Source of the DNA: an uncultured Lachnospiraceae bacterium
GTDB taxonomy: Bacteria > Bacillota > Clostridia > Lachnospirales > Lachnospiraceae
NCBI GenBank assembly: GCA_946414825.1
Contig: CAMKQB010000010.1
Span: forward strand, 1-42,317
DNA: 42,317 bases
Direction: 5' to 3'
Part shown: positions 17,042-42,317 of the stretch, one piece after another
Layout: every line of letters begins with the position of its first letter
Position numbering within the stretch: position 1 is the stretch's first letter
The notes under the pieces: generated by a model
The model's input: only the letters and a program-made list of their open reading frames with translations
The model's database searches: none
What the model was told of the DNA's origin: nothing
Translations under genes and position numbers: made by a program

Positions 17042-17215
17042 TCACAGAACAGTACTAATTATTCTGTAAAGTACTATGTAGGTGTACAACGGTCTCTCAA
17101 CCACCTCATCGCCCTGTACACTTGGGAACTGCAGTAAGCCGATCCAGATGAATTTATATTCACCCTTTCGCTCACGACGCTCTTTATAAAAAAGAACTAT
17201 CTCCTCTACTGCCAT
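17042..17215 (-). CDS. Candidate 57-aa ORF in the leader
   Basis: ATG 17215 to TGA 17042 encodes a soluble-looking peptide starting MAVEEIVLFYKERRERKGEY, then FIWIGLLQFPSVQGDEVVER and a hydrophobic end. There is no ribosome binding site before the ATG. It is in the same frame as the upstream 26-codon ORF, separated only by one TAG and seven sense codons. It may be the 3' part of a broken longer gene or a coupled small gene. The composition looks coding, but the evidence is thin. Confidence 0.35.
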   Translation of the reverse strand: MAVEEIVLFYKERRERKGEYKFIWIGLLQFPSVQGDEVVERPLYTYIVLYRIISTVL

Positions 17216-17236
17216 TTCGAGGATGAGGATATTCTT

Positions 17237-17317
17237 CTATATCCTCTGTGGTTCATTATCTCCAAGCAATGCTGTTATTCCCTTTATCAGTTGGCTGTCC
17301 TGTTCCTCACCCTTCAT
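17237..17317 (-). CDS. Candidate 26-aa ORF in the leader
   Basis: ATG 17317 to TAG 17237 encodes MKGEEQDSQLIKGITALLGD plus six residues, which is amphipathic and protein-like. The frame stays open upstream of the ATG. There is no clear ribosome binding site. The TAG stop lies in the loop of the perfect hairpin 17225-17246, and the same frame continues as the 57-aa ORF. Confidence 0.25.
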   Translation of the reverse strand: MKGEEQDSQLIKGITALLGDNEPQRI

Positions 17318-17523
17318 CTTTCGATCCGTCAGGCTACTAATGTGGTAACAGTGACTGCTTCCCCTCCAGGCAGCACCCCAAAGTTTTCACTTGAACTGCA
17401 GCTGTGTTATTAAATTGTGTGATAATGGTACATCAGATTTACTGATTCGAGAAGTCTGTCACACTGCCAAATTTCAGCCTGTTTTGGGTGTTTTTCTATC
17501 TGTGACACTGATAGTTATAATTT

Positions 17524-38738: not shown

Positions 38739-39647
38739 TTAAAAAAGTCCCTTGCTGATATATCTATCTCCGCGGTCCGGAAGGATTGCGACAATATTTC
38801 CTTCGTCCACTTCTTCTGCCAGCTTAAGAGCTGCATAGAGGGCCGCTCCCGAAGAAGAACCCGCAAGGATTCCTTCCTTTGCAGCAAGAAGTCTAGACGT
38901 AGTAAATGCATTATCGTCTGTTATCTTGATAACCTTATCAATGAGAGTTACATCCATAGTGTCAGCGATAAAGTCATTTCCGATTCCTTCAATGTCGTAG
39001 TCCGCGTGTTCGCCACCACCGATGATAGAACCAATTGGATCCGCAAGCACTCCCTGGATATTGGAGTTCTGTTCCTTGAGATACTTTACAACTCCTGAAA
39101 ATGTACCACCGCTTCCTGCGCCTGCCACCAGATAGTCTATCTGGCCGTCGAGCTGTCTATATATCTCAGGTCCTGTTGTCTCGTAGTGTGACTGTGGATT
39201 GGAAGGATTGTGGAACTGCTTCATAGAAACCGCACCTGGAATGGAGGCGATGATCTCATCCGCCTTTCTGTCTGCCCCCAGCATTCCTTCCTCTCTAGGG
39301 GTATGAACTATCTCTGCCCCGAGTGCAGCCATAACACGCTGCTTCTCAATAGAAAATTTCTCAGGAACTGCAAAGATTATCTTGTAGCCCTTATTAAGAG
39401 CCGCAACTGCAATTCCTATTCCGGTATTGCCGGCAGTTGCTTCAACAATAGTTCCGCCCGGCTTAAGGAGGCCTCTTCTCTCTGCATCCTCTATCATATA
39501 AATTCCAACTCTATCCTTTACACTTCCTGCAGGATTCATGAGTTCAAGCTTTGCATATACATTTACACCTGGCTTAACTCCGAGGTGATTAAGTTTTAAT
39601 ATCGGGGTATTTCCGATCATTTCCTGTACGTTATTATATACTTCCAT
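38739..39647 (-). CDS. Cysteine synthase family enzyme, probably OAS-dependent cystathionine beta-synthase (MccA-like)
   Basis: The 302-residue PLP enzyme has GNTPILKLNHL near residue 12, the PLP lysine in MNPAGSVKDRVG near 40, EATAGNTGIGIAVAALNKGY near 68, the phosphate-binding loop LVAGAGSGGTFSGVVKYLKE near 170, and the C-terminal SSSGAALYAALKLA. CysK usually reads EPTSGNTG here; EATAGNTG is closer to MccA/cystathionine beta-synthase forms. With the MccB-like gene 76 bp upstream it would make cystathionine from homocysteine and O-acetylserine, then cysteine. Plain cysteine synthase activity cannot be excluded. AAGGTG precedes ATG 39647. It is under the cysteine-codon attenuator at 41 kb. 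Confidence 0.88.
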   Translation of the reverse strand: MEVYNNVQEMIGNTPILKLNHLGVKPGVNVYAKLELMNPAGSVKDRVGIYMIEDAERRGLLKPGGTIVEATAGNTGIGIAVAALNKGYKIIFAVPEKFSIEKQRVMAALGAEIVHTPREEGMLGADRKADEIIASIPGAVSMKQFHNPSNPQSHYETTGPEIYRQLDGQIDYLVAGAGSGGTFSGVVKYLKEQNSNIQGVLADPIGSIIGGGEHADYDIEGIGNDFIADTMDVTLIDKVIKITDDNAFTTSRLLAAKEGILAGSSSGAALYAALKLAEEVDEGNIVAILPDRGDRYISKGLF

Positions 39648-39723: not shown

Positions 39724-40896
39724 TTACTTATTTCGAGACTCTTCTATCGCCTGGGTGAGATCCGCGATGATGTCGTCCACATCTTCAATTCCAACGGAGA
39801 GTCGGATGAGCTCATCTGTGATTCCAACTGCTTCTCTGATATCCTTCGGAATAGCCGCGTGTGTCATAGAAGCCGGGTGGCATACAAGGGACTCCACTCC
39901 ACCGAGGCTCTCTGCGAGAGTAACAAGCTTGAGAGACTTGAAGAATCTCCTGTAGTCATACTTCTTCTTAAGAGTAAAGGAGATCATCGCGCCCGGACCA
40001 TCGGCCTGTTTCTTCTGAACCTCGTAGCCAGGGTCTGACTTAAGACCTGGGTAGTAAACCTTATCTACATAGCCGCTGGATACCAGCCACTCTGCAACCT
40101 TCTCTGCATTCTGAACGTGACGGTCCATTCTAACTCCGAGGGTCTTGATGCCTCTAATCATCAGGTAGCTGTCCCAAGGACCAAGTACGCCGCCGATAGC
40201 ATTTTGCAGATAATAGAGTCTATCTGCGATTTCCTTATCATTTACAACAACAAAGCCCGAAACCGTATCACTGTGTCCACCGAGGTATTTAGTTCCACTG
40301 TGGATAACGATGTCTGCACCGAGAGAAAGCGGTCTCTGAAGGTAAGGAGTCAGGAAGGTGTTGTCCACGATCACCTTCTTGTTATAGATCTTCGCAAGCT
40401 CCGAAACTTCCTCGATATCTGTGATTGTTAAAAGTGGGTTTGCAGGACTCTCAATATAAACTGCTTTTATATCATTTCCGCCTTCCGTATCCTCCTTCAG
40501 AACCCTCTCGATTTCATCAAGGTCAGAGGTGTTAACTATTGTGTAGGTGATTCCGAAGTTCTTGAATACATTATCAAGGATTCTAAATGTACCCCCGTAG
40601 ATGTTATCTGATACGATGAGTCTGTCGCCTTCCTTAAATAGAGACAGCACCGTGTTGATTGCAGATAATCCTGAAGCAAAGGCTAGTCCATATTCGCCGC
40701 CTTCGAGGTCTGCTACGAGCTTCTCCAGAGCTGCTCTGGTTGGATTTCCTGTTCTGGAATATTCCCAGCCTCTATTCTCTCCGAGGCCGTCCTGCTTATA
40801 TGTTGAAGTTTGGTAGATAGGTACATTTACAGCACCTGTTCTTTCGTCTCCATCTATACCACCGTGAATTACTAATGAATTAAGTTTGATTGACAT
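39724..40896 (-). CDS. Cystathionine gamma-lyase / gamma-synthase family PLP enzyme (MccB-like)
   Basis: The 390-residue product is a complete Cys/Met-metabolism PLP enzyme: N-terminal SLVIHGGIDGDERTGAVNVP, YSRTGNPTRAALEKLVADLE near residue 47, EGGEYGLAFASGLSAINTVL near 65, VIVDNTFLTPYLQRPLSLGA near 175, the PLP lysine in IHSGTKYLGGHSD near 197, and SLGGVESLVCHPASMTHAAI near 330. Gamma-lyase (MccB) and gamma-synthase (MetB/MetI) cannot be separated by eye. The pairing with an MccA-like gene and the cysteine-codon leader favour reverse transsulfuration to cysteine. TAGGAGA precedes ATG 40896. Confidence 0.9.
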   Translation of the reverse strand: MSIKLNSLVIHGGIDGDERTGAVNVPIYQTSTYKQDGLGENRGWEYSRTGNPTRAALEKLVADLEGGEYGLAFASGLSAINTVLSLFKEGDRLIVSDNIYGGTFRILDNVFKNFGITYTIVNTSDLDEIERVLKEDTEGGNDIKAVYIESPANPLLTITDIEEVSELAKIYNKKVIVDNTFLTPYLQRPLSLGADIVIHSGTKYLGGHSDTVSGFVVVNDKEIADRLYYLQNAIGGVLGPWDSYLMIRGIKTLGVRMDRHVQNAEKVAEWLVSSGYVDKVYYPGLKSDPGYEVQKKQADGPGAMISFTLKKKYDYRRFFKSLKLVTLAESLGGVESLVCHPASMTHAAIPKDIREAVGITDELIRLSVGIEDVDDIIADLTQAIEESRNK

Positions 40897-40951: not shown

Positions 40952-40989
40952 CAAAAGAAAAACCCGGAAGCTTAAAATAAGCTCCCGGG
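40952..40989 (-). terminator. Attenuator terminator of the cysteine operon
   Basis: On the minus strand CCCGGGAGCTTA pairs over 12 positions (one G-U) with TAAGCTTCCGGG around a 3-nt loop, followed by TTTTTCTTTTG. It lies 28 nt after the leader-peptide stop and about 60 nt before ATG 40896, so it must be bypassed for the operon to be expressed. Confidence 0.9.
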
Positions 40990-41016
40990 TAAATGGTTGG
41001 TTCTAAAAATGTGTTA

Positions 41017-41127
41017 TTAGAGTGGACGACAACATCGACATACTAAAACACCAGCCATATTACATGTCCGGGAACTCAGTATGCGACAGCAACAGTTATT
41101 CATTTTTGTCACGAAAGACTTTGTCAT
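41017..41127 (-). CDS. Cysteine-rich leader peptide, 36 aa
   Basis: The ORF runs from ATG 41127 (AGAGGA 7 nt upstream) to TAA 41017. Of its 36 codons seven are Cys: codons 12-14 (three in a row), 22, 30, 32 and 33. The start reads MTKSFVTKMNNCCCRILSSR. It lies between a strong promoter and an intrinsic terminator ahead of cysteine-synthesis genes. The design is that of trp/his-type leader peptides: ribosomes short of charged Cys-tRNA stall at the Cys run and alter folding of the RNA. Codons 18-20 (41076-41068) can pair with the terminator 5' arm (40988-40980) over 9 bp. The regulatory reading is inference; the ORF and its codon content are seen directly. Confidence 0.85.
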   Translation of the reverse strand: MTKSFVTKMNNCCCRILSSRTCNMAGVLVCRCCRPL

Positions 41128-41156
41128 CTTTTTATCCTCTAACTTTCTTTTAAACG

Positions 41157-41175
41157 TAAGTGAGCATCTCACTTA
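41157..41175 (-). promoter_or_regulatory. Hairpin at the 5' end of the cysteine operon transcript
   Basis: A perfect 8-bp stem TAAGTGAG/CTCACTTA with a 3-nt loop lies a few nt after the expected transcription start. It probably stabilises the RNA 5' end or marks the pause that synchronises the first ribosome. Confidence 0.55.
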
Positions 41176-41184
41176 ACGATGGTC

Positions 41185-41213
41185 ATCTTAACATTTATTA
41201 CCTACCATGTCAA
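41185..41213 (-). promoter_or_regulatory. Promoter of the cysteine operon with overlapping palindrome
   Basis: The minus strand has TTGACA (41213-41208), a 17-nt spacer and TAAGAT (41190-41185). The -35 box lies inside the palindrome ACCTA-n9-TAGGT (41200-41218). That palindrome could be the site of a CymR/Rrf2-type sulfur repressor; the repressor identity is a guess. Confidence 0.8.
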
Positions 41214-41269
41214 TAGGTTTTTTAGTAATGCGACTGTCTACATACATCTACCTCGTGATATTTACTGAG

Positions 41270-41336: not shown

Positions 41337-42305
41337 TTATTTTATTTTCGCAAACACATCACCAATATCCCCATCAATGCAGATACTCCTGTTTGCAATT
41401 TTGCCCGGGCAAAATGCTTCGCCATAATTGATACAAGCATACACTGACTTTTCATTTGCCAGTGTCATTTGCCAGAACGGATACTTCACAATGACAGGCG
41501 TATTGGCTCCCACGCCAAGCTCCAGGTAAAGCACATGAAGATTCTCGCACCTGCGAAAGAAGTCGGAATATGCCGCAGACGCTCTGTGCCAGCCTTCGTC
41601 CTCGACAAAGGAATCATCGGAGCGAAGGTTCATGGTAACATCTGAGCCGTCATCCGGACAGTTCGGGATAAGTTCTGTCGGAATACGCATGGTTATATTG
41701 CCGTCCTCCGGCACTTGGAACACATCGTCCGCATCCTTCACAAAGCCCTGCGCCGCCATTGCTTTCATTACCCACTCTTCATTGTCGTAGGTCTTGCCAT
41801 TCCTGCCGTCCACAGTCTGGAACAAGCCATAGTCACCCTGAGTATAGAAAAGCCGCTTTTTATCAAAGCCTGCTCTCTGGAACTGGTGATCTACATTCGT
41901 TGTAACAACAAAATAATCCTTATCTTTCACAAGTGAGAGCAGTTCCTGATAGACAGGTTTCGGAGCGTCAATATATCGGTTGAAATAGATATGCCTTGCC
42001 CACCATGCCCAGCGTGTTTCTTCATCGGGGAAGGGATAGAACCCGCCGGAATACATATCTTGGATGCCGTACTTCCTTGCAAAGTCAAAGAAGTACCTTT
42101 CAAATCGCTCTCCGCTATAGGTCAGTCCAGCAGAAGTGGAAAGTCCGGCGCCTGCTCCGATAACGACTGCATCTGTTGCTTCAAGCTCTTTCTTTAATCT
42201 GGCGATTCGTTCCTCCTCAGAGCCTGTTCCAAATGACATATTTCTGCTGAAATACCGCACCGCACCGAGTCCCTTCTGAATGCTTTCTTGATAGCCGTTC
42301 GGCAT
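41337..42305 (-). CDS. SirTM-like Sir2 family protein (ADP-ribosylation type), start uncertain
   Basis: This is a Sir2 fold: AVVIGAGAGLSTSAGLTYSG near residue 48 (NAD binding), DYFVVTTNVDHQFQRAGFDK near 130 (TxNxD), and LYLELGVGANTPVIVKYPFW near 255. Where ordinary sirtuins have the catalytic His-Gly, this protein has FYTQGDYG, a Gln, as described for SirTM (class M) enzymes. SirTM enzymes ADP-ribosylate a lipoylated GcvH-like protein. Zinc ligands are mostly gone: only one Cys remains in IPNCPDDGSD. SirTM genes normally sit beside a macrodomain, GcvH-L and lipoate ligase genes; those could lie beyond the right edge. The frame stays open past ATG 42305 to the window edge, so the N-terminus may be longer; MSFGTGSEEERIARL at residue 24 is another possible start. 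Confidence 0.82.
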   Translation of the reverse strand: MPNGYQESIQKGLGAVRYFSRNMSFGTGSEEERIARLKKELEATDAVVIGAGAGLSTSAGLTYSGERFERYFFDFARKYGIQDMYSGGFYPFPDEETRWAWWARHIYFNRYIDAPKPVYQELLSLVKDKDYFVVTTNVDHQFQRAGFDKKRLFYTQGDYGLFQTVDGRNGKTYDNEEWVMKAMAAQGFVKDADDVFQVPEDGNITMRIPTELIPNCPDDGSDVTMNLRSDDSFVEDEGWHRASAAYSDFFRRCENLHVLYLELGVGANTPVIVKYPFWQMTLANEKSVYACINYGEAFCPGKIANRSICIDGDIGDVFAKIK

Positions 42306-42317
42306 TTCATCGTATAA

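Follow-up and report, generated by a model that had tools for sequence, protein, structure and literature searches.

Cysteine genes of Firmicutes are taught as the territory of T-boxes and of CymR, with T-boxes and S-box riboswitches both being common for such genes. The Cys-run ORFs of mycobacteria, as described by Canestrari in 2020, are reportedly leaderless. For the Firmicutes, excerpts of two reports (PMC2965389, PMC9413887) document the use of T-boxes and, in some members, attenuators with a His leader. ORFs with Cys runs lie upstream of cys genes in Actinobacteria, and the excerpted account of them gives no conserved terminator hairpins and suggests Rho (PMC1262725). The uORFC-8-2 motif upstream of cysS in Rhodobacterales comprises a uORF with Cys codons and an intrinsic terminator and, in the excerpt of its description, is proposed to sense Cys-tRNA (PMC8632094).

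The stretch of DNA analysed here, henceforth the window, comprises 42,317 nucleotides from an uncultured Lachnospiraceae bacterium and carries a leader region ahead of an mccB-cysK type operon. The initial annotation had read this leader as an attenuator of the operon, and this core claim passed the comparative tests named with it: when leaders of relatives were aligned, the Cys run, the terminator and the pairing between leader ORF and terminator arm all recurred, with the paired strands changing together. We regard the leader as very probably being a ribosome-mediated four-segment transcription attenuator that senses charged tRNA-Cys. Sequence comparison supports the Cys-run ORF, a hairpin (P1) holding region 2, the complementarity of region 2 and the terminator 5' arm, and the terminator itself. 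The predicted features are the following.

41201..41218, minus strand: putative Rrf2-family operator, inverted repeat ACCTA-TTGACATGG-TAGG(T), overlapping the -35 box, with three exact sites in the genome
41185..41213, minus strand: promoter predicted from sequence, TTGACA (41213-41208), 17 nt, TAAGAT (41190-41185)
41155..41177, minus strand: 5' hairpin of the leader RNA
41135..41140, minus strand: AGAGGA, from its sequence the probable Shine-Dalgarno sequence of the leader ORF
41017..41127, minus strand: leader peptide ORF read from the letters, 36 codons plus stop, seven Cys
41086..41094, minus strand: Cys codons 12-14, the proposed stall site, the run recurring in relatives and the changes in L028 keeping Cys
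41039..41083, minus strand: P1, anti-antiterminator hairpin with CATACT/AGTATG at its base and CCGG/CTGG at its top, from pair counts, covariation and folding
41068..41078, minus strand: antiterminator strand (region 2), TGAGTTCCCGG, from pairing energy, swap test and the nine-sequence alignment
41055..41058, minus strand: 5' side of a second antiterminator helix, ATGG, pairing with CCAT at 40996-40993
40993..40996, minus strand: 3' side of this second helix, CCAT, from the nine-sequence alignment
40978..40988, minus strand: antiterminator partner (region 3), which is the terminator 5' arm, CCGGGAGCTTA, on the same three grounds as region 2
40953..40990, minus strand: intrinsic terminator hairpin (40990-40961, -20.8 kcal/mol, covariation in relatives) with its U-tract
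39724..40896, minus strand: mccB-like gene for a Cys/Met-metabolism PLP enzyme (PF01053, 501.6 bits)
38739..39647, minus strand: cysK, cysteine synthase A, passing the TIGR01139 cutoff (352.9 versus 350.95 bits)

Promoter, 5' hairpin, ORF with three consecutive Cys codons among seven, and terminator hairpin with U-tract between ORF and genes had all been described before, and all were found when the letters were checked. The promoter spacing is alike in the four loci L028-L031, as sequence comparison showed. The 5' hairpin is weaker in L028, the closest relative, was not seen in L029-L031, and is probably dispensable. Translation of the ORF (41127-41017) gives MTKSFVTKMNNCCCRILSSRTCNMAGVLVCRCCRPL*, with Cys at codons 12, 13, 14, 22, 30, 32 and 33. 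Since a triple Cys codon is common as a DNA word (TGYTGYTGY occurs 302 times on both strands of the own genome versus 64 times for the reversed control pattern), the weight of the three-Cys run lies in its position and conservation. The two downstream genes had been taken for cysteine genes; cysK passes its model cutoff, and the mccB product matches its Pfam family but stays under the cutoff of every one of the 25 best NCBIfam models listed, the candidates being cystathionine lyase, cystathionine synthase and sulfhydrylase. Upstream of the operon, an ORF at 41337-42317 (minus strand) looks SIR2-like by eye and had no Pfam or NCBIfam match at E 0.001.

Judged on this predicted anatomy, the element is a member of the trp/his-type class. 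Like trp/his-type attenuators and the His-leader attenuators of Firmicutes, as the excerpts describe them, it has a leader peptide in which the regulated amino acid occurs as a run, an antiterminator and a terminator that would exclude each other, and pathway genes downstream. It differs from the described His leaders in its amino acid, cysteine, in its sequence, in standing ahead of several unlinked gene types and in a usually shared operator. With uORFC-8-2 it has in common the Cys codons of a uORF followed by an intrinsic terminator and the proposed sensing of Cys-tRNA, but that motif, in its excerpted description, belongs to Alphaproteobacteria, has two tandem Cys codons and precedes cysS only, whereas the element described here occurs in Clostridia, has two to six Cys codons and precedes biosynthesis and transport genes. 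By its genes and its phylum it is not a member of that motif. Short Cys-run ORFs ahead of cys genes are likewise shared with the Actinobacteria, where the ORFs are without conserved terminator hairpins according to the excerpt (PMC1262725), in contrast to the SD-like sequence, terminator and antiterminator found here. The kind of attenuator is already known; none of the matches listed in the open-licence literature, a scope with subscription papers mostly outside it, is a cysteine leader attenuator in Firmicutes.

In the proposed mechanism, ample cysteine would allow the ribosome to run to the stop codon with P1 closing behind it, leaving region 3 free, so that the terminator would form and transcription would end near 40953. 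When Cys-tRNA is scarce, the ribosome would wait on the Cys run and cover the base of P1; region 2 would then be open, catch region 3 emerging from the polymerase, and permit read-through into mccB-cysK. The initial annotation had assumed that a ribosome which has passed covers codons 18-20 at termination, which fails because by then the ribosome would have reached the stop codon, some 50 nt further downstream. Region 2 would instead be protected by the re-formed P1, a component that was absent from that account and that is, by comparison of the sequences, an anti-antiterminator. Because the terminator, once complete, is more stable than the competing fold, the decision would have to be kinetic.

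The 9-bp pairing between codons 18-20 and the terminator arm that had been noted earlier is correct and extends to 11 bp in the window (41078-41068 with 40988-40978; -19.9 kcal/mol, z -4.9), and when the ORF stretch was shuffled 300 times with its dinucleotides preserved, 0 shuffles equalled it. The pairing statistics cover 36 of 40 leader rows; L045, L047 and L059 were left out for lack of a convincing terminator or for a wrong frame and L048 because its terminator was not accepted, the element of L059 being placed later by the covariance model (E = 0.31). The swap test and the folds of partial transcripts also included the second copy of the own genome and L019 (38 leaders). Taken singly, 20 of the 36 leaders pair better than their shuffles at p 0.05 or less, and L029 and L030, which are close to the window, showed no gain over shuffles at p 0.05. 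As the sequences are related, counts across them are not independent. Region 2 lies at a median of 13 nt past the end of the Cys run, and its sequence varies by branch together with that of the arm: TGAGTTCCCGG/CCGGGAGCTTA in the window, CATTCTTCGC/GCGAGGAATG in L035 and L036, CTTGTTTCGT/ACGAAGCAAG in L040, CAGCCTG/CAGGCTG in L060, and ACTCGGGC/GCCCGAGT in the second leader copy of the own genome. In the swap test, with one representative for each of 14 arm types, the summed energy was -222.9 kcal/mol versus a permuted mean of -163.7 (sd 10.3), and 0 of 20,000 permutations were as low as the real pairing. The own arm was the best partner in 6 of the 14 types and not the best in 8, L062 (rank 11) and L065 and L066 (rank 5) being poor cases.

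Within an alignment of nine close sequences (A3) the antiterminator is paired in 81.7% of cells versus at most 47.5% when slid, and it barely exceeds column shuffles, 63, 34 and 109 of 500 of which reach it, because this close set holds hardly any variation. An antiterminator excluding the terminator was thus found by pairing and swap test and is weak within the nine sequences. The second antiterminator helix (ATGG/CCAT) is paired in 94.4% of cells, nearly without variation. For the terminator the paired fraction was 87.8% (at most 64.4% when slid), and 1 of 500 shuffles equalled its covariation score; for P1 it was 87.5% (at most 45.0% when slid), its covariation score of 0.281 being attained by 5 of 500 shuffles, and the number of double-change pairs in P1 was ordinary (reached by 219 of 500). 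On the larger alignment of 25 sequences (A2) RNAalifold gave 0 pairs, since the terminator arms are out of register in the MAFFT alignment, and the model built from it (R1), being without base pairs, was left out of the analysis.

Among 80 loci of mccB homologues, 18 have a short ORF with at least three consecutive Cys codons within 700 nt upstream, one of them (L091, from an archaeal MAG, its ORF lying far upstream) being probably a chance case, and L076, L090 and L094, with 0-2 nt of upstream sequence, could not be judged. Many other mccB loci have CC plus further Cys codons, the longest runs are of six (L035, L036), and in eight loci (L037, L038, L039, L041, L042, L046, L070, L077) mccB stands behind another gene, ahead of which the model places the element. 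The closest relative, a rumen Eubacterium MAG (L028) with a 97% identical MccB, has unrelated DNA upstream of the operator and a kept leader. The leader ORF retains 105 of 111 nt, the 5' UTR 38 of 53 alignment columns and the terminator 33 of 38 positions, the five terminator changes all falling in the loop and its closing pair. Both changes inside the Cys run still give Cys, a third change adds one Cys, and L028 lacks one of the four Cys codons that follow the run. Many leader ORFs among L044-L100 close with Arg-Cys or Arg-Cys-Cys before the stop, almost always spelled CGATGT, and CGAATG frequently comes right after the Cys run. The Arg codon CGA is fixed at these places; in part, the terminal CGA excepted, this fits the P1 base (CGAA with TTCG).

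The short ORF could also be a small gene, for instance for a metal-binding or modified Cys-rich peptide, with the hairpin as its own terminator and mccB-cysK transcribed by leak-through or from another promoter. The peptide is indeed conserved in places, the motif MCC(C)RML.SRA..MAG recurring in many of the model matches, but the conserved residues include the codons of region 2, and other branches (e.g. L035, L036, L040) share the Cys run alone. Moreover, arm and region 2 change together and the element repeatedly stands ahead of genes for sulphur amino acids, so that we consider a small gene very improbable. Equally, the RNA could be a T-box or a metabolite riboswitch with an incidental Cys-rich frame, as would suit the frequency of such elements ahead of these genes in Firmicutes. 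Both were rejected: no Rfam family, the T-box model included, reaches its threshold on the leader, and at four loci searched at E up to 1 the sole overlap with a leader was PrrF (E = 1, 25.6 versus 90 bits). Cys runs also recur though the rest of the leader differs, and this reading is extremely improbable.

P1 stands directly behind the Cys run: its base (CATACT with AGTATG) begins 2 nt past the run, with region 2 of the window being part of the hairpin. We folded three transcript stages with assumed ribosome footprints: the full leader, the leader cut before the terminator 3' arm and the leader cut before the 5' arm. At equilibrium the full leader of the window has its terminator formed to 0.95-0.97 in every ribosome state, so that the folding check with masked codons proposed initially gave no switch for the window. 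Its relatives were mixed: L050 switches as expected, the terminator of L031 forms to 0.91 with the ribosome at the stop codon, 0.01 with the ribosome on the last Cys codon and 0.22 without a ribosome, L067 and L085 among the 36 leaders shift in the wrong direction, and L053 and L055 terminate in no masked state. With the transcript ending just ahead of the 3' arm, the antiterminator of the window forms in all four states, again without a switch, and a stalled ribosome gains at least 2 nt of antiterminator in 11 of 38 leaders, with the opposite in 3.

In the transcript cut before the 5' arm, the mean paired fraction of region 2 is 0.69 with the ribosome at the stop codon, 0.55 with the ribosome on the run's first Cys codon and 0.41 with the ribosome on the last. 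A fall of more than 0.2 from the stop-codon state to the last-Cys state occurs in 25 of 38 leaders, a comparable rise in none, and the mean drop is 0.28 versus 0.095 in shuffled flanks, the largest of 20 control sets giving 0.145. Taken by itself, the window shows a P1 effect of 0.55 versus 0.37 in shuffles, 1 of 20 being as large. Here the paired fraction of region 2 is 0.21 with a stall at codon 14, 0.73 with a stall at codon 12 and 0.76 with the ribosome at the stop codon. Of the proposal that a stall at codons 12-13 frees the antiterminator, the freeing by a stalled ribosome was retained and its position moved: under the assumed footprint P1 opens with a stall at codon 14 and stays closed with a stall at codon 12. 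That a stalled ribosome opens the protector hairpin thus comes from comparison and from folding with this footprint. The three stages fit a kinetic decision in which region 2 would be shielded by P1 as long as no ribosome is waiting at the Cys codons. We kept the attenuation reading because the early stage alone, with region 2 still waiting, responds, which is a weaker argument than a direct switch. Its three terminator states, its natural covariant pairs and the presence of two copies in one genome would make the element a compact test system.

A covariance model (R2) built on nine seeds and covering P1 and the terminator finds the element at 46 places in the family, in 36 of 397 genomes and 33 of 334 genera, both copies of the own genome included, and finds none in G160, the single other searched genome of the own genus. 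In the class (291 genomes) it finds the own genome and eight others, all from other families, the weakest match (G500, E about 0.01) looking like chance. Loci were available for 41 matches: all 10 class places outside the own genome, and 31 of the 46 places in the family, among which five are seeds of R2 or coincide with the element of a seed. A short ORF with CC is present at 36 of these 41 versus 28 of 562 control windows, an enrichment that is not independent because R2 contains the Cys codons. A search for poly-Cys words was uninformative: five consecutive TGY occur in 293 of the 397 genomes of the family, and other repeats also match in their reversed frames.

The genes downstream of the element serve cysteine and methionine supply. 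In 30 family loci the N-terminal sequence of the next gene is metY-like in 15, a substrate-binding lipoprotein in 7 and mccB-like in 5, the remaining 3 being another sulfhydrylase-like enzyme (1) and others (2). The metY of the own genome passes TIGR01326, the second sulfhydrylase-like enzyme type resembles this model below its cutoff, and two of the lipoproteins resemble MetQ below cutoff. One of the two other next genes, in L194, encodes a JAB-domain peptidase (PF14464). JAB-domain enzymes free cysteine from sulphur-carrier proteins in some bacteria, so that a cysteine route via sulphur carriers may share the switch.

An exact match to the 18-base palindromic pattern that overlaps the -35 box occurs three times in the own genome: in the window, at the second leader on contig C9, and on contig C51 (15001-18023, L206), where it lies between the divergent metY-cysK genes (a second cysK) and the Rrf2 gene, without a Cys leader. 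Allowing up to two mismatches, the pattern is not enriched in this genome (6 sites versus 13 for the reversed control), so that only the three exact sites are meaningful. The motif CCTA-N9-TAGG, which is outside the model, occurs within 260 nt upstream at 25 of the 41 R2 matches versus 10 of the 562 control windows, and in another genome (L026) the operator motif lies between an Rrf2 gene and a divergent gene, which we take to be nifS-like. One Rrf2-family gene was found in the own genome, which is 91.6% complete. Its protein matches PF02082 and TIGR00738, with solved chains of CymR and IscR among the PDB matches, and thus belongs to the same family as these two, but it scores below their NCBIfam equivalog cutoffs (CymR 81.5 versus 195, IscR 91.7 versus 207.55) and earns neither name. 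The palindrome is probably an operator bound by an Rrf2-family repressor, where we infer both the assignment of the regulator and its binding, and the start of transcription would probably also be under this CymR/IscR-like repressor. CymR had been mentioned initially as a regulator known for Firmicutes cysteine genes; control of the CymR type is probably not replaced here, with a likely Rrf2-family operator overlapping the -35 box.

Such a repressor could even control the operon alone, with terminator and ORF setting a fixed basal level. The presence of the operator, the metY operon that has the operator without a leader and the one Rrf2 gene found all agree with this, but it leaves the kept Cys runs, the covarying pairing and P1 unexplained and is very improbable. 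As metY on C51 has an operator without a leader, the layers of operator and attenuator are separable, and their near-constant pairing would allow one to ask what two-layer control buys the cell.

Taken across genomes, the element is likely to represent an undescribed family of cysteine-specific attenuators, a shared RNA switch of the sulphur amino acid regulon (metY, mccB-cysK, a second sulfhydrylase-like gene and MetNIQ-type uptake) in Lachnospiraceae and other Clostridia. It would act in series with the Rrf2-family repressor on the -35 palindrome, so that tRNA-Cys and protein-sensed signals combine at one promoter-leader unit, which in the own genome also heads an opine-dehydrogenase-like operon. 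A cysteine switch that senses translation and recurs ahead of many genes in Clostridia of the rumen and gut would stand as a third mode beside T-box and CymR, and would make the cysteine regulon of uncultured Lachnospiraceae readable from sequence.

The second leader copy (contig C9, 28975-22000; L027, L205) heads an operon that begins with a leucine-carboxyl-methyltransferase-like gene (PF04072, TIGR00027) and further comprises genes for a MetQ-like lipoprotein, an octopine/nopaline-dehydrogenase-like enzyme (PF02317), an aminotransferase, and MetN- and MetI-like transporter parts. An opine-type product is possibly made under cysteine control there, which, if true, would put a small molecule under this switch. 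Elsewhere in the window, at 17077-17339 (minus strand), lies a Clostridiales-3 sRNA of Rfam (179.1 bits versus a cutoff of 103.4).
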